Positions 539-54,070 of a stretch of DNA of 64,000 nucleotides are shown here, piece after piece. The notes under the pieces were generated by a model, which saw nothing but the letters and a program-made list of their open reading frames with translations, did not search any database and was not told the origin of the DNA. Every line of letters begins with the position of its first letter. The stretch's first letter is position 1. Location: NCBI RefSeq assembly GCF_000230695.2, contig NC_020541.1, positions 62,001 through 126,000 of the forward strand, read 5' to 3'. The stretch comes from Rhodanobacter denitrificans (GTDB taxonomy: Bacteria > Pseudomonadota > Gammaproteobacteria > Xanthomonadales > Rhodanobacteraceae). A program made the position numbers and the translations under genes.

Positions 539-1023
539 AGCACCGCCGCGGCTGTCAGCGGGTCTTTAAACACGGCCGCACCGACCGGCACCCAGTCCTC
601 GAAGAATTCCTCCCTCACGATCGAACCGCTCGGACGCTTGGCCGAGCGAGCCTCGTCGATGCAGGGAATGACGCTGGTCACGTTGTAGAACCAGCGCGAC
701 TCGCCTGCGCAGTCCATCTCGAGGAACTGCCCGAAGCGCGACAGGAAGGGCTCGAGCGCAACCTTCGCCTTGTCGTTCATGACCAGGGCGCCCGGAGTCA
801 GTGCACTGACGTCTGCCAGCGGTTTGGGCTTCTTCTTTCCCGGTTCGACGAAGACTTCGACCCTGGGCTTTCTTGACCAGGAGAGGCTGGCGCCGGAGGT
901 GTCGAACATGCCCGACGCGACGTCCTTGTCGCTGCCAAAGACCAAAGGCGCATAGTCATTGACGGAGCCACTTTCGAGTTTCCATACTTTCACTTCCACC
1001 ACCTCTGCCGGGAGGCTCGGCAT
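421..1023 (-). CDS. Imm11/DUF1629-like protein, possible immunity protein
   Basis: The 200-residue soluble protein begins with a VKVWKL strand and ends with a FVELGPPPKK tail, features I associate with the DUF1629/Imm11 group of predicted immunity proteins of polymorphic toxin systems. No signal peptide or membrane segment is seen. The ATG at 1023 lies inside the end of the truncated propeller gene; a GTG about 11 codons further in, preceded by a GAGGTGG stretch, is an alternative start nearer the family's usual N-terminus. No toxin gene is visible beside it, so it would be an orphan immunity gene. Family assignment is from memory of the motif pattern and is only moderate. Confidence 0.55.
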   Translation of the reverse strand: MPSLPAEVVEVKVWKLESGSVNDYAPLVFGSDKDVASGMFDTSGASLSWSRKPRVEVFVEPGKKKPKPLADVSALTPGALVMNDKAKVALEPFLSRFGQFLEMDCAGESRWFYNVTSVIPCIDEARSAKRPSGSIVREEFFEDWVPVGAAVFKDPLTAAAVLYVNEAGKAALEAIITEAAIVGVAFVELGPPPKKPRPRS

Positions 1024-1466
1024 CGTTCGCGTACAACAACACGACGATGTCCTTGCGCATATCGTTTGCCGCCGCGGCGCGGCTGCGGCTTGCCGTCGTA
1101 GTAGCCGTCGAGCGCTGCGCCGCCGGCGGCCACCGGCCGGTTCGAGGCGAACACCAGGTAGGAGCCGTCCGGCGCCATCGCCGGGTCGAGGTCGCGCCAG
1201 CGCCCGGGGAACGGCGCGACGCGCGGCGTCGACCAGCGGCCATCGACGCGATGCGACTCCATCAGCGTGAAGCTGTCGGTGCCGCGCATGAAGTACACCG
1301 CGGCGCCATCCGGGCTGAACGCGGCGGCGCCGTCGTCGTTGGGACCGGCGATGACGCCGGGAGCGAAGATCGCCGGTGCTGACGAGGTGGCAGGCGATGC
1401 TGCATGGGCGCCGCCACCGATCAGGGTCGCGGCGGTCAGGAGCACGAACGGGGACGGCAAGCGCAT
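990..1466 (-). pseudogene. Truncated TolB/WD40-like (PD40) secreted protein
   Basis: The start at 1466 gives a signal peptide (MRLPSPFVLLTAATLIGG, then AHA) followed by two PD40 blades with FSPDGAAVYFM and MAPDGSYLVFASNR. These are typical of secreted TolB-like propellers, which usually run about 300 residues. Here the propeller stops at about residue 133 (DGKPQPRRGG). The last 25 residues are an unrelated Arg-rich tail that runs into the 5' end of the Imm11-like gene. The gene therefore looks cut at about position 1070-1080 by the event that placed the Imm11-like gene beside it. The remaining protein is unlikely to fold as a propeller. Confidence 0.65.
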
Positions 1467-16102: not shown

Positions 16103-17515
16103 ATGTCCACCGCCCACCACGTGCTCGACCTGATCCAGGAACACGAGGTCGAATTCGTCGACTTCCGTTTTGCCGACATGCTCGGCGTGCACCACCACGT
16201 CACCTTCCCGGCCCACGCGATCGACGAGTCGACGTTCGAGGACGGCAAGATGTTCGACGGCTCCTCGATCACCGGCTGGAAGGGCATCAACGAGTCGGAC
16301 ATGATCCTGCTGCCCGACCCGGACACCGCCCACCTCGATCCGTTCAGCTCGCACACCCAGCTGATCCTGCATTGCGACGTGCTGGAGCCGAGCACCATGC
16401 AGGCCTACGGCCGCGACCCGCGCTCGATCGCCAAGCGCGGCGAGGCGTACCTGAAATCCACCGGCATCGCCGACACCGCGTTCTTCGGTCCGGAGCCGGA
16501 GTTCTTCATCTTCGACTCGGTGCGCTGGCAGAACGACCCGGGCCGGGTGTTCTACGAGATCGGCTCGGAAGAAGCGGCATGGTCCTCGCGCTACAAGTAC
16601 GACGGCAACAACAGCGGCCATCGCCCGGGCGTGAAGGGCGGCTACTTCCCGGTCAGCCCGGTCGACTCGCTGGGCGACCTGCGCGCCGACATGTGCAAGG
16701 TGCTGGAGTCGCTGGGCCAGAAGGTCGAAGTGCACCACCACGAAGTGGCCAATGCCGGCCAGTGCGAGATCGGCGTGAAGTTCAATACGCTGGTGAAGAA
16801 GGCCGACGAGCTGCTGACGATGAAGTACGTCATCAAGAACGTGGCGCACCAGAACGGCAAGACCGTCACCTTCATGCCGAAGCCGCTGGTCGGCGACAAC
16901 GGCTCGGGCATGCACGTGCACCAGTCGCTGGCCAAGAACGGCGAGAACCTGTTCGCCGGCGACCTCTACGGCGGCCTCAGCCAGACCGCGCTGTGGTACA
17001 TCGGCGGCATCTTCAAGCACGCCCGCGCGATCAACGCGTTCGCCAATTCCACCACCAACAGCTACAAGCGCCTGGTGCCGGGCTTCGAGGCGCCGGTGAT
17101 GCTGGCCTACTCGGCCCGCAACCGCTCGGCGAGCTGCCGCATCCCGTACGTGGCCAGCCCCAAGGGCCGCCGCATCGAGGTGCGCTTCCCCGACCCGATG
17201 AACTCCGGCTACCTGGTGTTCACCGCGCTGATGATGGCCGGCCTCGACGGCATCATCAACAAGATCGACCCGGGCGCGCCGGCCGACAAGGACCTCTACG
17301 ACCTGCCGCCGGAAGAGGAGAAGAACATCCCGCAGGTGTGCTCCAGTCTCGACGCCGCGCTGGAAGCGCTGGACAAGGATCGCGACTTCCTGAAAGCCGG
17401 CGGTGTGTTCACCGACGACTTCATCGACGCCTACATCGAGGTGAAGATGAAGGAAGTGACCAGGTACCGTGCCAGCACGCACCCGCTGGAGTTCCAGATG
17501 TACTACTCGCTCTGA
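16103..17515 (+). CDS. glnA: Glutamine synthetase type I
   Basis: The 470-residue protein is a full-length GS-I beta enzyme. It shows the N-terminal latch loop [10 protein letters not shown], the catalytic motifs [11 protein letters not shown] and [11 protein letters not shown], and the glutamate flap region NRSASCRIP. The adenylylation loop [11 protein letters not shown] has its target Tyr at about residue 399. It makes glutamine from glutamate, ammonium and ATP in the cytoplasm. The upstream NtrC-like site and sigma54 promoter predict induction under nitrogen limitation, with post-translational adenylylation at the Tyr. It is followed by a strong hairpin terminator. Confidence 0.97.
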
Positions 17516-17536
17516 GCCGGCCCATCATGTGATGCG

Positions 17537-17564
17537 GACAACGGGCGCTTTGGCGCCCGTTGTC
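17537..17564 (+). terminator. glnA intrinsic terminator
   Basis: GACAACGGGCGC (17537-17548) pairs perfectly with GCGCCCGTTGTC (17553-17564) around a TTTG loop, followed by a short GTTTCG run. It lies 22 bases after the glnA stop. The T tract is short, so the stem may act partly as an mRNA end stabiliser. Confidence 0.8.
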
Positions 17565-17699
17565 GTTTCGGCGGTGCCGCCAAGCTCGATGCGCTTGCTA
17601 TTGAAACCCACCGCCTCGAATCCATCTACCAACCGAATTTGCGATCGTTCGGTTGTGGCTGCGTGTGGGACCCGCGGTCAGCGGTCGCTGCGGTGAAGA

Positions 17700-18116
17700 T
17701 CATTCATCGACGGCATCGACCCAGCCGTGGGCGACGATCAGATCCTTGATTTCTTTCGGTGTGTGCCTGGAAGACAGGCATGCACGAATGATCCGAGCCA
17801 CGATGGCGCCGTCCATCATGTCGTGCTGTCTGAAAACACCGGACTCCACGGCTCTCACCAGCTTGGCGGCTTCTTCCAGCCGGCAGGTGCTGTACTTGAC
17901 GTAGCTGGTCTGTTTCACGAACGGATGGTCGCCTGCGTACAGCAGACAGGCGGGGTCGTAATAGGCGTTCTGACGAACCGTGCTGAGGCTGACGAGCAAA
18001 CACTTGGGTGGCTCGCCAAAGGGGTCGCAAAGCAGCACGAACAAATGACGCAGATCGGGTCGATCAATCGACCCGGACGGTATAAGCACCGTCGCGCGCT
18101 TGGTCGCGAAAAACAT
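17700..18116 (-). CDS. Uncharacterised protein, candidate toxin partner of a Panacea antitoxin
   Basis: The 138-residue soluble protein has a beta-rich N-terminal half (residues 8-80: RATVLIPSG, HLFVLLCDPFGE, CLLVSLSTVRQ, TSYVKYSTCRL) reminiscent of small SH3-barrel toxins, and a helical C-terminal third ending KEIKDLIVAHGWVDAVDE. I do not recognise a named family. Its ATG overlaps the stop of the upstream DUF4065 gene by one base (TGATG), so the two are translationally coupled. Panacea (PanA) antitoxins are known to pair with diverse small toxins (PanT) in such operons, so this gene is the natural toxin candidate. That role is inference. Confidence 0.6.
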   Translation of the reverse strand: MFFATKRATVLIPSGSIDRPDLRHLFVLLCDPFGEPPKCLLVSLSTVRQNAYYDPACLLYAGDHPFVKQTSYVKYSTCRLEEAAKLVRAVESGVFRQHDMMDGAIVARIIRACLSSRHTPKEIKDLIVAHGWVDAVDE

Positions 18117-18673
18117 CAGATCGTGGCGAACAGACGATCCACGATCGCCGCCTCGGCCAGACGCTCCTGGGCTTCATTCGCCTGCTGCATGTTCCGGCCC
18201 AACGCGAGAAAGACATCGCGCGGCGGGATTGGGTTCATGGAACCCTTGGGGTCGGTCCATTCTCCACACATCGTGTGGGTGAGATCGCGAATCTCGTACT
18301 TGCCAAGCTGGCCGAAACGATCCCAGGTGTCGGTCAAAACCTCGATGTCGGCATCGCTGAGTGCACCCAATGAGTCACGATTCAGCGGCCCGTGTTTGGC
18401 CGAGCCGACCTCGTAACCGGCCCTGCCGGTGACCCAATGAGACCAATCGTTGGTATCCGAGCATTCGCCGTTGATAAGCTCCAACGTCCGCGACAACACT
18501 GGGCCGTGCGGCATCGAAACCATGCGGTCGCCGGAAATCGGCTCGTCGTAGCGATCCATGGATTCGCGGTCAGCTAGGTACAGAAGCTTCATGAGCTTCA
18601 GTACCGGCATGCTGCCGTGGCCCTTCTCGAGGAAGAACGCGGCCATCTGGGAAACTTTCTTTTCGTTGAACAT
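18116..18673 (-). CDS. Panacea/DUF4065 (SocA-like) domain protein, candidate PanA antitoxin
   Basis: The 185-residue protein matches the Panacea/DUF4065 domain: VSQMAAFFLEKGHGSMPVLKLMKLLYLADRE at residues 6-37, GDRMVSMPHGPVLS at about 45-58 and LSDADIEVLTDTWDRFG at about 100. The domain occurs in SocA of Caulobacter and in the PanA antitoxins that neutralise many unrelated toxins. The start MFNEKK at 18673 has GAAGG nine bases upstream; an ATG at 18688 is an alternative. The coupled downstream gene at 17700 would be the toxin. No phage or transposon genes flank the pair. Confidence 0.82.
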   Translation of the reverse strand: MFNEKKVSQMAAFFLEKGHGSMPVLKLMKLLYLADRESMDRYDEPISGDRMVSMPHGPVLSRTLELINGECSDTNDWSHWVTGRAGYEVGSAKHGPLNRDSLGALSDADIEVLTDTWDRFGQLGKYEIRDLTHTMCGEWTDPKGSMNPIPPRDVFLALGRNMQQANEAQERLAEAAIVDRLFATI

Positions 18674-19006
18674 GGCTTTGGCCTTCATCTGCCCCGGGAA
18701 TCGGCGTTGCGATGTTCGCCAGACTTTTGCTTGTCGGGAATGGCTGGGTAACGGCGCCATCCAACTGATACGGATCAAAGGTAGTGGCTGAAGAGTCGGT
18801 GGCCGCGTGAGCCGCGGAAATGTCTGACTGATCAAGACAAAAGGTACCACAAGCGAGCGGCCGAGAAGTCAAGATGGGCAGGGATGGTTGGGGCGCGTTC
18901 ACGGCCCGGCACTTGGGCGCCGGCCACGTGCGGTGGTCGATCGGCGGTGCGCTCCGGTGCTCCTTCTCCGCGAAGGCGGGGATGATGCCGAGCCCCGGCG
19001 TTCAAT
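18674..19006. other. Intergenic region upstream of the PanA-like gene
   Basis: These 333 bases lie between the start of the DUF4065 gene and the end of the porin gene, both on the minus strand. I see no supported coding sequence and no convincing terminator. The promoter of the toxin-antitoxin pair should lie at about 18690-18850. No clear -35/-10 pair could be singled out. Confidence 0.4.
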
Positions 19007-20320
19007 TCAGAACGTCACCTGCGTGTACAGGCCGATGACGAAAGCATCGGGGATGCTGCCGGTGCCGCCGGGGTGCATCACGTACTGCAGATTGGGGCGC
19101 AGGATGAGCCAGGGAGTGAGCTTGGCGCCGTAGTCGATCTCGGCGACGCTTTCGTAGCGCTGGATGCCGATGCTGCCGGGCGCCACCAGATCGCGGTCGC
19201 GCTGGTAGCGGGTCAGCCGCGGGTTGGTGCGGCCGCTGGCGACCATGAGCGAGACCACGTCGTCGTCGCGGCCGGGGAAGGTGCCCTGGTAGTGGCCACC
19301 GACGATCCAGAAGTAGCGGTACTTCGCGGTCGACGCATCGCCCACGCCGCCCATCGCGCCCAAGGTGAGCCCGCGTTTCGTGTCGGGCCCTTCGCGGTAG
19401 ACCATCTTGTCGACGATGAAGTAGCCGCCCGAGCGGCCATTGTGCTGCATGAAACCGGCGCCGGTGAGGCCGGCCGACTGGCCATTGACGTCGGTGTAGA
19501 CGTCCGGCGTGCCGACGGTGTTGTAGTACGCGCCGAGCTTGAGATCGGCGGGCAGCTGCCCGCTGCCGTAGCCGTTGGACCAGCCCACCTCGACCGGCAG
19601 GAACACGCCGTGATGCTTGAGGCTGAGGTTCCAGCCCTGGTCCTTGTTGCCGGCGTTGGGATTGTTGAGATAGGCGCCGACGGTGGCGTAGAAGTCCGGC
19701 GTGGCATGCCACTTCACGTGGCCGCCCCATTGCGCGGTGGGGTAGTTGTGCGCGCCGCTGTTGGTGGTCATCGCGTTGGCGTGGCCGCAGATGATGCCGT
19801 TCTGGAAATTGCAGAACGCAGGCAGTCGCGCGAAGTCGTCGCCCGCCGGCGACCAGCCCAACTCCATGAAGACCCGATGGTCGAGGAAATCCTGTTGCCA
19901 GTTCAATGCGGCCAGGCGGAAGTTCTGTCCCGCGCCGTAGAGCTCCTGCACCGAGAACTGGTTGCCGATCGCGTCGGTCGACAGGCTGCGGCCGTCGCGC
20001 TCGGTGACGGTGAACTGGATCTTCGCGTCGGGCACGCCCCACAGCTTGTCGAGGTCGAAGTCCGCGCCGAGGTCGAGCTGCTGGGTGTAGCGCGCGGTCT
20101 GGCGATGGCCGCCGGAGAGGTTGCCCGCGCTTTCGGTGGTCCAGTGCGCGCGCAGGGCGATGCCGTCGCCATGCAGCTGCGTGCGCGTGCCGCCCCAGTC
20201 GCCGGTCAGCGTGGGTTGCCCAAGCCAGCCGCCGGCCTGCTGTGCCAGGGCCGGCAACGTGCACAGCCACAACGTGCTGCCGAGCGCCAGGCCGGGGATC
20301 GTGCAGGGTGGATGGCGCAT
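19007..20320 (-). CDS. Carbohydrate-selective porin OprB family
   Basis: The 437-residue protein has a signal peptide (LALGSTLWLCTLPALAQ) and the OprB family opening LTGDWGGTRTQLHGDGI. About 16 amphipathic strands follow, with a C-terminal Phe (GLYTQVTF). OprB porins admit glucose and other sugars through the outer membrane. The gene starts six bases after the cytochrome gene stop, as the last gene of the dehydrogenase operon, which fits supply of sugar to a periplasmic oxidase. Confidence 0.9.
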   Translation of the reverse strand: MRHPPCTIPGLALGSTLWLCTLPALAQQAGGWLGQPTLTGDWGGTRTQLHGDGIALRAHWTTESAGNLSGGHRQTARYTQQLDLGADFDLDKLWGVPDAKIQFTVTERDGRSLSTDAIGNQFSVQELYGAGQNFRLAALNWQQDFLDHRVFMELGWSPAGDDFARLPAFCNFQNGIICGHANAMTTNSGAHNYPTAQWGGHVKWHATPDFYATVGAYLNNPNAGNKDQGWNLSLKHHGVFLPVEVGWSNGYGSGQLPADLKLGAYYNTVGTPDVYTDVNGQSAGLTGAGFMQHNGRSGGYFIVDKMVYREGPDTKRGLTLGAMGGVGDASTAKYRYFWIVGGHYQGTFPGRDDDVVSLMVASGRTNPRLTRYQRDRDLVAPGSIGIQRYESVAEIDYGAKLTPWLILRPNLQYVMHPGGTGSIPDAFVIGLYTQVTF

Positions 20321-24124: not shown

Positions 24125-24356
24125 GGGCGCAGCGGCCGATGAAGAAGAAAAGACCATCCCGCAGGCGTGCTCCAGCCTCGACGCCGCGCCGGAAGCGCCG
24201 GACAAGGATCGTGACTTCCTCAAGACCGGCGGCGTGTTCACGGACGCCTGCATCGAGGTGACGATGAAGGCGGCCACCAGGTGCCGCGCCAGCACGCATC
24301 TACCGGAGTTCCGGATGTATTGCCCGCCCCCGATCGCGGAGACATCGGGGGATTGA
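24125..24356 (+). pseudogene. Fragment of a glutamine synthetase 3' end
   Basis: Translation in the frame ending at 24356 reads [40 protein letters not shown] and RASTH, matching the last 65 codons of glnA (17305-17515). It lacks the adenylylation-Tyr segment and four codons between GAC repeats. Many substitutions break conserved positions, so this is not functional. A degenerate copy of the glnA terminator follows at 24359. It is either a partial duplication of glnA or the last trace of a second GS gene. Confidence 0.85.
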
Positions 24357-51132: not shown

Positions 51133-51678
51133 CTAAAGCAAACCGCCCTGCGCCGGCGCGTAGCTCAATTGGCCGTCCACGATGTGTGCTGGCGAGGTGT
51201 ACGGGTGCACCGTGGCATGCGCGGCATCGATGATGTGGATCACCTCGATCCCGCGCAGCTTCAGCACGTCGGAAATGATCGAGCGGTGGCAGCGCCACCA
51301 CACCGCCTCGGCGCACATCATGGCAGTACGTTTTTCGCGGGCGAGTGCCAGCAGTTCGGCGAGACCCTCGGCGAACTCTGCCGTGGCGGTGTAGTCGGCG
51401 TAGCCCTGGAACGAGGCGTTGCGCCACGCGGTGTTCGGCGAGCCGGGCTGCACCTTGCGGCGGCCGCCCAACTTGGGCATCCAGCGGTAGGCGATGCCGT
51501 GCGCGGGCAGCGTGGCGGCCAGCGCATCGCTGGCGAAATGCGGATGGCGACGCGAACCGGGAAAGCGCCGCACGTCGGCGACGGCCTCGATCCGGTAGGC
51601 GTCGAGCAGGCCGAAGAACTCCTGCAGCGTGCGGGTGGAATGGCCGATGGTCCAGAGCGTGGCAGGGTCGTCGGGCAT
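51133..51678 (-). CDS. DUF488 family protein
   Basis: The 181-residue protein shows the DUF488 pattern: TIGHSTRTLQEFFGLLDAYRIEAVADVRRFPGSRRHPHF at the N-terminus, then YRWMPKLGGRR and the cysteine motif MMCAEAVWWRCHRSIISD. The family is widespread and of unknown function, possibly nucleic-acid or redox related given the conserved C-x8-C-H. It lies two bases from the HVA1-type gene, with which it probably forms an operon. Confidence 0.9.
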   Translation of the reverse strand: MPDDPATLWTIGHSTRTLQEFFGLLDAYRIEAVADVRRFPGSRRHPHFASDALAATLPAHGIAYRWMPKLGGRRKVQPGSPNTAWRNASFQGYADYTATAEFAEGLAELLALAREKRTAMMCAEAVWWRCHRSIISDVLKLRGIEVIHIIDAAHATVHPYTSPAHIVDGQLSYAPAQGGLL

Positions 51679-51679
51679 C

Positions 51680-51892
51680 TCAGTCGATTTTGTGCAGCGC
51701 CGCGCCCTTGTGCATGGCGACGTGGTCGGTCTTGTCGCTCTGGATCTCGTACTGCGGATCGGCCTCGCTGCAGCGGCGCGTGTGGCCTTTGTAATCGGCG
51801 TCGCGCGTGTGCACCGCGATGATCCGGCCGGTCACGTAGCCGGCTTCCGAATTCCAGCGCACGTGGTCGCCGATCTTGTAGGGGTGGGCCAT
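51680..51892 (-). CDS. HVA1/DUF2945 family small protein
   Basis: The 70-residue protein matches the hypervirulence-associated TUDOR-like DUF2945 family: KIGDHVRWNSEAGYVTGRII, YEIQSDKTDHVAMHKGAAL. It is a small SH3-like fold of unknown role. It precedes the DUF488 gene by one base on the same strand. Confidence 0.88.
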   Translation of the reverse strand: MAHPYKIGDHVRWNSEAGYVTGRIIAVHTRDADYKGHTRRCSEADPQYEIQSDKTDHVAMHKGAALHKID

Positions 51893-52088
51893 GCCGGCTC
51901 TCCTGGCGGTAGGTCAGCGGCCATTGAAGCACGCCGTTCGTTCAGCCCAGGTGGAGCGGGGCTGGCCGCATGGATTCCCAAACAAGCTAAACAAGGGTCC
52001 GGTTGCACTTTCGTGTGTGTGGCAATGGAAAGTTGACTGTGACCCTCCACTTTCAGCACGCAGCGCACTGACAGCGCGAGCAGAAATC

Positions 52089-52562
52089 CTAAAGGCCGCC
52101 GACTTCTGGAATCTCATTGGGAAGCAGGAGCGTGATACGTGCTTTTATTTCTCGTACTAAAAGGTGATAGTCCGCGATAATATTGAATACTTCGCGATGC
52201 GCCTCATTGGACATGCTGCCACAATTCTGTGTGTAGTTAGAAACTGAAACGAAATCGTTGTAACGAGCTACGGCGATGCGAAAGAACAGTAGCTCCTGGA
52301 TGAGTTTACCCTCACGCTTGTAGCTAAGACAATTGCCTTCGATAAGTTTTTCAATGCTAGCAAATCGTAGTGTGTCTCGATGAAAAACCAGGCTTTCATC
52401 ATATGTAGGAAACTCGTTCTTGACGCGACGTAGCTCGTACTTGAACATCCCAATTAGCAAATTACGCCGGGACCGGCTTTCCTGCCAACTTGAGAGTTTC
52501 GTTGCGACAAAACCCAATATCGCGCCGAGCACAACAAGTGATACGCTACCGACGACTTCCAT
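52089..52562 (-). CDS. Unknown membrane-anchored protein in low-GC islet
   Basis: The 157-residue protein has one N-terminal membrane segment (VGSVSLVVLGAILGFVATKL) and a long helical cytoplasmic part (RRNLLIGMFKYELRRVKNEF, later FNIIADYHLLVREIKARI). No family is recognised. Its codons are much richer in A and T than neighbours, suggesting transfer. It follows an attC-like site on the same strand, so it may be an integron cassette gene. Confidence 0.6.
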   Translation of the reverse strand: MEVVGSVSLVVLGAILGFVATKLSSWQESRSRRNLLIGMFKYELRRVKNEFPTYDESLVFHRDTLRFASIEKLIEGNCLSYKREGKLIQELLFFRIAVARYNDFVSVSNYTQNCGSMSNEAHREVFNIIADYHLLVREIKARITLLLPNEIPEVGGL

Positions 52563-52617
52563 GGTGCTCCTCGGTTACCCCGCTGTGATTGAACTTTCGA
52601 ACGCACTCCAAGTCGGG

Positions 52618-52674
52618 TGCTTACACTAGAGTTAAGCGGCGGCGCAGCCGTCCGCCTCGAACGATTGGTCAACG
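52618..52674 (-). other. Integron attC-like recombination site
   Basis: On the minus strand the site reads CAATCGTTCGAGG, then the stem GCGG-A-CGGC with loop TGC and return arm GCCG-CCGC, then TTAACTC followed by a degenerate right core GTAAGCA. This matches integron attC sites in order: the left CGTTC-AAGC box, a hairpin with one extrahelical base (A) and the GCTTAACTC right box, in a total of 57 bp. The stop codon of the upstream gene (52669) lies in the left core, as is usual for gene cassettes. The outer core bases are imperfect. No integrase is in the window. Confidence 0.55.
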
Positions 52675-53118
52675 CTCATTTGCGATCTCCCGTAGCGCCG
52701 GGCTGACGCCAGTTTTTGTACGACCGCACTGTGTACGAGCAAAGGCACACTTAATCTTGCGGCCTGTACTGGAGCGTGGAAGCTCGCTGTAAATTGACAC
52801 AGAGCTGCGAGGCTCTAGACGCCGAGGCCAAGGGCCATGGTCTGCGAACACGGGATTGACGATGCTGCCTCGCTTGTTTGTACCCTGAAAGAACACGCCA
52901 GCGTCGTCAAGCGTTACGGCGAACTGGCTTAGGTTTGTGACTTGCACACAGAAGCGAATGTTTTGAGGTGCGCCACCATACGGAATGGCGTGAGCCGGAA
53001 TAACCCTTAGCTTGACGCAATTCTGGTCGATTGCGCGCCATGTGTTGATGATACCGAGCACCGCACCAACAGCCGCGATAGCCAGTGTCACTGCTTGGAA
53101 TACTGTGATGTCGGGCAT
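52669..53118 (-). CDS. Unknown membrane-anchored protein, cassette-like
   Basis: The 149-residue protein has an N-terminal membrane segment (AVTLAIAAVGAVLGIINTW) and a predicted beta-rich domain (IRFCVQVTNLSQFAVTLDDAGVFF, RSSVSIYSEL) that looks like an Ig-like or adhesion-type fold. I do not recognise the family. Its stop overlaps the attC-like site, and its base composition is lower in GC than the surroundings. A single gene ending in an attC is the cassette layout. Confidence 0.62.
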   Translation of the reverse strand: MPDITVFQAVTLAIAAVGAVLGIINTWRAIDQNCVKLRVIPAHAIPYGGAPQNIRFCVQVTNLSQFAVTLDDAGVFFQGTNKRGSIVNPVFADHGPWPRRLEPRSSVSIYSELPRSSTGRKIKCAFARTQCGRTKTGVSPALREIANER

Positions 53119-53365
53119 GAGTGTTAACTCTTAGTAAGCCCCGGATCGGAACATATACGTCGGATATTCAGCTTTCGACCCTCGGTCGTCAAGCAAGCAA
53201 AACTGCATGGTTTCAATGCGTTGGTCGTAGGCGCCGGTCATGTCCGCCATGATCCTGCCAAGTTGGATATCCCACAAAGCGCAGCGCTATGTCTTATCTC
53301 CCACAAATCACGGTGATAACAATCATCGTTCCGGCTTGTTCGCGGGGTTTGGCAGCCGCGTGCAT

Positions 53366-54070
53366 TCACCCCAGCCGCAGCAGCTTGCGCACTGCCGGCA
53401 GGTTGCGCCGGCTGATTTCGGGAGCGTGGTCGGTGCCGTCCAGCCGCGCCAGCACGCGGCCGTCGGCGAGGGTCTTGAGGCCGAGCAGGCGCGGCGGCGG
53501 GACGAGGCAGTTGCGGTGCAGGCGGATCAGCTGGTCGGGGTAGGCTTCTTCCAACTGGCGCAGTGAATCCTCGATCAGCAGCTCGCCGCGGCGGTGCTGC
53601 ACGACTACGTATTTCTCGTCGGCGAGCAGGCAGATCACTTCGTCCAGTGCGATGCGTACCTGCTCGCCGCGCAGGCGGCCGTACAGGTAGGCGGCCGGTT
53701 CGCGCGGGGCGTCGGCGAAGCGGCGTTGCGCGCGCTGCAGCGCCTCGCGCAGGCGGTCGAGCCGCACCGGTTTCAGCAGGTAGTCGGCCGCGCCCAGCTC
53801 GAACGCCTTCAGCGCATGCGCCTCGTAGGCGGTGCAGAAGATCACCTGCGGCCGCGCGCGGCCGGCCAGGCGCTGCGCCAGCGCCACGCCGTCGATCCCG
53901 GGCATGTTGATGTCCAGCAGCAGCGCGTCCGGCTGCAGTTCGCCGAGCGCGGCCAGCGCGGCTTCGCCGTCGCCGACGTTGCCGACGACTTCCACGCCGG
54001 CGCAGTCACCGAGCAGCGCGGCCAGGCGCGCGCGTGCCAGCGGCTCGTCGTCGACCACCAGCACGCGCAT
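53366..54070 (-). CDS. LytTR family response regulator (AlgR-like)
   Basis: The 234-residue protein has a receiver domain (VVDDEPLARARLAALL, Asp in LLLDINMPGIDG, Lys in DYLLKPVRLD) and a LytTR DNA-binding domain (DEVICLLADEKYVVVQH, LIRLHRNCLVPPPRL). It is the AlgR/LytR type that binds direct repeats. Its start overlaps the stop of the sensor gene (TGATG), giving a coupled pair. The targets are unknown. Confidence 0.93.
   Translation of the reverse strand: MRVLVVDDEPLARARLAALLGDCAGVEVVGNVGDGEAALAALGELQPDALLLDINMPGIDGVALAQRLAGRARPQVIFCTAYEAHALKAFELGAADYLLKPVRLDRLREALQRAQRRFADAPREPAAYLYGRLRGEQVRIALDEVICLLADEKYVVVQHRRGELLIEDSLRQLEEAYPDQLIRLHRNCLVPPPRLLGLKTLADGRVLARLDGTDHAPEISRRNLPAVRKLLRLG

Follow-up and report, generated by a model that had tools for sequence, protein, structure and literature searches.

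A probable toxin-antitoxin operon with a Panacea antitoxin and a predicted MazF-fold toxin in an acquired island of Rhodanobacter denitrificans

Introduction

Antitoxins with a Panacea domain (PanA) are encoded beside the toxins (PanT) that they neutralise, and the described pair closest to the one treated here is PanAT of Pseudomonas moraviensis LMG 24280 (WP_083354365.1/WP_083201923.1). According to the accessible text of Kurata et al. (2022; PMC8832971), this PanT has no CDD hit and is MazF/PemK-like by HHpred, specifically inhibits protein synthesis, and is both neutralised by its PanA and pulled down with it. Here we analyse a Panacea gene and its partner in a 64,000-nucleotide (nt) stretch of the Rhodanobacter denitrificans genome (NCBI RefSeq assembly GCF_000230695.2, contig NC_020541.1, positions 62,001 to 126,000), hereafter the window. 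The original prediction, made from the letters alone, was that of a candidate Panacea-type toxin-antitoxin pair whose toxin may belong to a new, unrecognised family. Coordinates are those of the window or, where a label beginning with L is given, of the retrieved locus so labelled.

Our data lead us to read the pair, with a probability of about 0.8, as a type II toxin-antitoxin operon that was gained by horizontal transfer, is of a sort that temperate phages often carry, and encodes a toxin that probably cuts RNA. MazF/PemK is among the commonest folds of the toxin-antitoxin network in the accessible text of Ernits et al. (2023; PMC10440598).

Results

The two open reading frames (ORFs) lie on the minus strand at the positions first described. 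The PanA gene (18116-18673) encodes 185 amino acids (aa) from an ATG, and its residues 27-139 match the Panacea model PF13274 well over the cut-off (77.7 bits vs. 25.7; E 1.7e-21); no second Panacea match turned up in the genome (4.2 Mb). The partner gene (17700-18116), which encodes 138 aa from an ATG and is called PanT below as a putative MazF-fold toxin, overlaps it by one base: the PanA stop TGA and the PanT start ATG share base 18116 in the sequence TGATG (18114-18118, minus strand). On the same strand, GAAGG at 18682-18686, 8 nt ahead of the PanA ATG, is a candidate ribosome-binding site by sequence reading, and no GAAGG-like site was seen in the same way ahead of the PanT start. This absence, together with the overlap of stop and start, suggests that translation of PanT is coupled to that of PanA. 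A promoter scan of the locus found none (0.5 expected in shuffles), and the one terminator-like site of the locus scan was within chance.

The Panacea assignment extends to the relatives of the window PanA, since PF13274 was matched by 29 of 29 aligned proteins. The GPV motif, which matters for neutralisation by Panacea proteins in the accessible text of Kurata et al. (2022; PMC8832971), corresponds to G57, P58 and V59 of the window PanA; across the 29 sequences G and P are kept in all and V in 26. Mean column conservation is lower in the C-terminal extension (residues 140-185, 0.47) than in the core (0.61).

The association of the two genes was examined from both sides. Starting from the partner alone, we fetched 77 loci (6 from phages, 4 from plasmids, 21 from genomes and 46 from viral contigs); three more hits, H5 and H6 from phages and H11 from a plasmid, seem to be near-duplicates of H4 and H10 and were left out. 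A match to a PanA profile was found directly upstream and on the same strand in 74 of the 77, so that the partner is not one that occurs widely without a Panacea gene, and the proposed pairing held. The profile was built from the window PanA and nine of the 77 loci, for which the match is therefore not independent, and for several of these nine the Panacea domain is shown by their own records or by Pfam. The three loci with no PanA are a 40-residue partner fragment (L035), a partner copy at a contig edge (L046), and L062, considered below. Some loci are near-identical copies (e.g., L052-L056); when each distinct partner protein was counted once, among those whose ORF call was complete, PanA was present in 62 of 64. 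The gap between the genes in the 72 related loci measured ranged from -59 to 14 nt and was -4 in 37 and -1 in 10, that is, one of these two values in 47 of 72. L025 and L065, in which PanA is present, and L035 have no complete ORF call and stand outside the spacing counts.

Starting from the antitoxin, 19 of 398 genomes of the genus of P. reinekei (L013) had a match to the PanA of Pseudomonas phage Sirocco. The ten best matches (E 2.3e-17 or lower) were all accompanied by the partner and the nine weak ones (E 1.9e-6 to 5.5e-4) by none; one of the latter, L167, has a different partner, which scored 15.6 bits against our partner profile. Among 190 genomes of the phylum, 38 Panacea matches were found in 31 genomes, and the loci of 30 matches were examined, the other eight matches having no locus. 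Ten of these 30 score at least 199 bits and belong to the PanA clade of the window; each is accompanied by the partner, in L187 a broken one. The other 20 score at most 69 bits, two of them giving no hit to the PanA profile, and the partner accompanies none. The genus and phylum sets have one gene in common and together hold 19 distinct clade genes, 19 of 19 with the partner; ten of them had already been found and nine were new. Within the genomes examined, this PanA clade thus keeps a single partner, and the pairing is nearly obligate. Distances among PanAs and among PanTs were correlated over 64 pairs (r = 0.72; maximum of 0.16 in 2000 permutations), a result compatible with co-evolution and with shared ancestry alike.

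A protein search with the window PanT returned 23 homologues of 40-94% identity, and the partner occurs in 8 phage records, 5 plasmid records and 46 viral-contig loci. These homologues, and the gene order, strand and close spacing kept by the phage, plasmid and genome loci, show that the partner is more than a chance ORF. In genomes it was found in 2 of 100 relatives, 3 of 369 from the class, 9 of 398 from the order and 12 of 398 from the phylum, each count including the genome of the window itself. Its relatives reside in tailed phages (one under Peduoviridae), a Vibrio phage under Tectiliviricetes, a Helicobacter prophage and plasmids. A close version of the pair is present in 205 of 5426 complete Escherichia coli genomes, always on the chromosome, and in the six rows shown it is annotated as "Panacea domain-containing protein" plus "hypothetical protein."

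Two members have escaped annotation. In phage Sirocco the partner (L006:1486-1884, plus strand) is unannotated and a 135-bp minus-strand ORF was called there instead; in a Phaeobacter plasmid (L009:2507-2887, plus strand) it has no listed gene. Two Phaeobacter plasmids bear the label "Panacea domain-containing protein" under the partner, as if the two were fused; fusion was rejected for the one fetched, where the label is that of the gene upstream, whose sequence shares a few bases with the match, and no gene is listed for the partner itself. Damaged partners were also observed: in L187 (1974-2408) PanA is intact and the partner diverges after about 25 residues, L031 has an in-frame stop, L080 is in two pieces in different frames, and L035 is the fragment already mentioned.

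The window PanT had nothing above cut-off in Pfam, NCBIfam or PADLOC, its one weak Pfam match reaching E 0.065 (13.9 bits vs. a cut-off of 27). It does match phrog_19071 of PHROGs (E 1.1e-19), as do 81 of 81 proteins of the partner alignment (best E 4.9e-59). This alignment excludes L025, L031, L035, L046, L065, L068, L070, L073, L079, L080, P0010 (78 aa) and duplicates. Across it H24 and D54 never vary (81/81), C57 and S71 each occur in 80 sequences, and H64, F66 and Y75 each in 79; judging from conservation, H24, D54, H64, S71 and Y75 are candidate active- or binding-site residues. A search of the PDB with the window PanT as a single sequence gave no match, and one with the 81-row profile gave a chance-level match only (ExsA, E 1.4). 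An assignment to NTP_transf_3, matched by 7 of 81 members (best E 0.0099), was rejected as contradicted by the fold and as weak, the hit of the window PanT to this model being the one at 13.9 bits.

The AlphaFold2 model of PanT (pLDDT 93.2) has 5 strands and 3 helices, in agreement with the description of the partner as beta-rich. Its predicted fold is that of MazF, Kid and CcdB, with about 97-109 residues aligned at 7-15% identity, and MazF/Kid-type entries make up 48 of the 50 rows of the fold list; on the basis of the model, a MazF/Kid fold is assigned with high confidence. Of the original claim that the partner belongs to no recognised family, what stands is that no Pfam, NCBIfam or PADLOC model matches it; the fold speaks otherwise, and the predicted novelty of the toxin is further reduced by its very probable kinship with the P. 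moraviensis PanT.

That kinship was reached through the antitoxin. In the accessible text of Kurata et al. (2022; PMC8832971), ten residues, MIFSEQKVAQ, were added before the annotated start of the P. moraviensis PanA. A start codon followed by IFSEQKVAQ and a Met, the next possible start, recurs in the PanAs of Sirocco (L006, GTG), L159, L160 (GTG) and P. reinekei (L013, TTG), all paired with this partner family; the PanA of L161, with the same partner family, has the nine residues IFSEQKVAQ and no Met. Because the printed N-terminus recurs in partner-paired PanAs, the P. moraviensis PanT very probably belongs to this family. When genome contigs were searched with the Sirocco PanA, P. subflava and P. 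reinekei were returned and P. moraviensis was not.

L167 led to a second family of Panacea-linked proteins. Its partner (932-1396, minus strand) lies next to its own Panacea gene, and a relative 26% identical to it follows a Panacea gene (PF13274 E 1.4e-22) in Serratia phage vB_SspS_OS31 (L206:1483-1977, plus strand). The positions H-x-F ... S-x-V/I are common to the two families, and profile comparison related the L167 family at 92% to the PanT family and at 52% to PemK (single-template statistics). A bridge from the PanT family through the L167 family to PemK is therefore only suggestive.

The pair sits in an island of about 1.4 kb (17573-19006, borders approximate) between the glnA terminator and a porin gene. 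Homology with congeners ends at 17516-17594; in the congener stretches that extend to the porin, it picks up again at 19005-19007. GC content is 60% in 17516-19006 and 58% and 59% in the pair genes, compared with 67.8% in the window. A perfect 12-bp inverted repeat after glnA (17537-17564), also present in congener sequence, is a candidate terminator and marks the left border. The partner was found in 0 of 44 congeners. The glnA probe matched 45 of 45 genus genomes, and loci were obtained from 20, of which 19 are congeners: in L144 and L156 the porin comes next after glnA, with under 90 bp and under 20 bp, respectively, unaligned; in L140, L143, L145 and L146 the two genes are separated by some 0.3 to 1.2 kb of different sequence; and in 13 the porin was not reached within the stretch compared. 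From the GC content, the absence in congeners and the glnA-porin comparison we conclude that the pair was horizontally acquired as this island.

The spot that holds the pair is occupied in one congener by a Bro-N domain gene (L145:2382-3356; PF02498 E 3.9e-7). Congener G035 carries, between its glnA and porin genes, another copy of the glnA 3' end together with the adjoining downstream sequence (L146:175-481; 83% identity with 17255-17574); this second copy hints that the glnA 3' end may be a recurrent insertion spot. The window itself has a decayed second glnA 3' end at 24141-24327, with about 80% identity to 17312-17502 in an alignment of 191 columns, and such a copy lies at a similar distance in congener G013. 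The decayed and true glnA ends bracket genes for the porin, a cytochrome c and an oxidoreductase. Elsewhere in the window, the strongest GC dip is at 51501-53500 (52-58% in 1-kb windows), and a ParE-type toxin domain is encoded at 92-358 on the plus strand (PF05016 E 8e-8, in the ORF 83-538).

Discussion

Near-exclusive linkage to PanA and the toxin fold strongly support the Panacea-type toxin-antitoxin reading. Gene order, family, near-exclusive pairing, fold, correlated divergence and acquisition are computed results, from which a mechanism can be proposed by analogy. PanA is encoded first, and the overlapping stop and start would probably couple translation of PanT to it. As in validated PanAT pairs, PanA would bind PanT and keep it inactive; loss of PanA, or a trigger sensed by the Panacea domain, would free PanT as proposed from validated relatives. 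Free PanT probably cuts RNA, whereupon translation would stop.

Several observations weigh against this reading. PanT has no direct sequence homology to PemK (0.3% in profile comparison), and no member of the 81-protein alignment has a Pfam match above cut-off; for the MazF/PemK model PF02452, there was no match for the window PanT and none among the 81 up to E 1. MazF catalysis depends on Arg and Thr residues, which are not plainly conserved in the partner family. In the insignificant alignment to the PemK profile, R23 (K/R in 45/81), which adjoins the invariant H24, and S45 (S/T in 74/81) would fall at these positions. The fold list also contains CcdB, at a difference of about 1 Z unit or less. 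The P. moraviensis PanT was related to the family through the PanA N-terminus and not through the toxin sequence. One shortened orphan partner, L062, has no PanA within 380 bp upstream. In the accessible text of Kurata et al. (2022; PMC8832971), weak membrane depolarisation was seen with the P. moraviensis toxin, although it was taken as indirect; moreover, eight of the toxins tested had no toxic effect in E. coli, and the toxicity of five others was not rescued. Since nine of the 25 Panacea pairs tested were validated in that text, a conserved pairing is by itself no proof of a working pair.

As regards its role, the pair may tentatively be seen as chiefly a module of phage defence or superinfection exclusion, in which Panacea would sense a phage product and free PanT. 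This is a plausible statement about role that is compatible with the toxin-antitoxin reading. Relatives occur in phages and prophages, two of them beside an integrase gene, the distribution is sporadic (2 of 100 relatives, own genome included), and Panacea was proposed as a sensor in the accessible text of Ernits et al. (2023; PMC10440598). However, PADLOC assigned neither protein to a family (0 for both), our literature search, which covered few subscription papers, found no test of this partner family, and a toxin-antitoxin pair of related fold, AarT with its AAA ATPase, did not protect in a coliphage screen according to the same text. More doubtful is a wider proposal, in which PanT would represent its own branch within the MazF fold, its active site re-tooled and its RNA target a different one. 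It would be tied to a single PanA clade and travel with temperate phages as a superinfection-exclusion module, and the "hyperpromiscuity" of Panacea would then mask stable clade-specific partnerships. The basis for a re-tooled site is the invariant H24 and D54, the near-invariant H64, and the H-x-F ... S-x-V positions common with the second Panacea-linked family.

CcdB has the same barrel fold as MazF, kills by trapping DNA gyrase and contacts gyrase through its C-terminal region. Because the fold scores are nearly tied, a CcdB-like gyrase poison in the same pair is the main rival on the target; it appears improbable, since the fold list is dominated by MazF/Kid-type entries, the C-terminal region is variable across the partner family, and its probable relative in P. 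moraviensis is a specific inhibitor of protein synthesis (Kurata et al. 2022, accessible text). It is just as improbable that PanA is a proteolytic adaptor (type VI) that hands PanT to a protease rather than inhibiting it directly. SocA, a Panacea protein, acts in this way on SocB, but in the accessible text of Kurata et al. (2022; PMC8832971) the validated pairs were independent of ClpXP and Lon, and pull-down recovered the P. moraviensis PanA together with its toxin. Chance neighbourhood, or a housekeeping role of the partner unrelated to Panacea, finds little in its favour in the single orphan copy and can practically be dismissed given the linkage in 74 of 77 loci and the patchy presence, with 0 of 44 congeners.

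We therefore return to the acquired toxin-antitoxin operon with a toxin that, by analogy, probably cleaves RNA and thereby stops translation. As a single find it is otherwise ordinary, another acquired PanAT pair, and it counts as a further case of a known kind and not as a novel toxin class, a relative having very probably been tested before. It does give a "hypothetical protein" family of phages, plasmids and many genomes a testable identity, that of a MazF-fold toxin with a Panacea antitoxin, and is well suited to the question of why a single Panacea clade holds one toxin partner while the domain overall swaps partners. No further study on this partner family was recognised in a literature search that covered few subscription papers and no supplements.

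The pair can be placed among known systems as follows. For phrog_19071, PHROGs gives no function, and the toxin-antitoxin reading is added by the present analysis. The L167 family is separate, has a distantly related PanA, and comes closer to PF02452, although below its cut-off (E 0.0054). MazF, PemK and Kid resemble PanT in predicted fold and, presumably, in acting as type II toxins, whereas PanT has a Panacea antitoxin, other conserved residues (H24, D54, H64) and no PF02452 match. AarT of Acinetobacter guerrae (NetFlax node D3) also has an mRNA-interferase fold; it gives no HHpred hits and inhibits protein synthesis, and its antitoxin is an AAA ATPase (Ernits et al. 2023, accessible text). 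PanAT of P. moraviensis differs in host and sequence, and translation block and neutralisation were shown there (Kurata et al. 2022, accessible text), whereas the window pair is known from sequence; with its Panacea antitoxin, its MazF/PemK-like toxin and a PanA N-terminus like that of partner-paired PanAs, it is the system that the pair of R. denitrificans most resembles.
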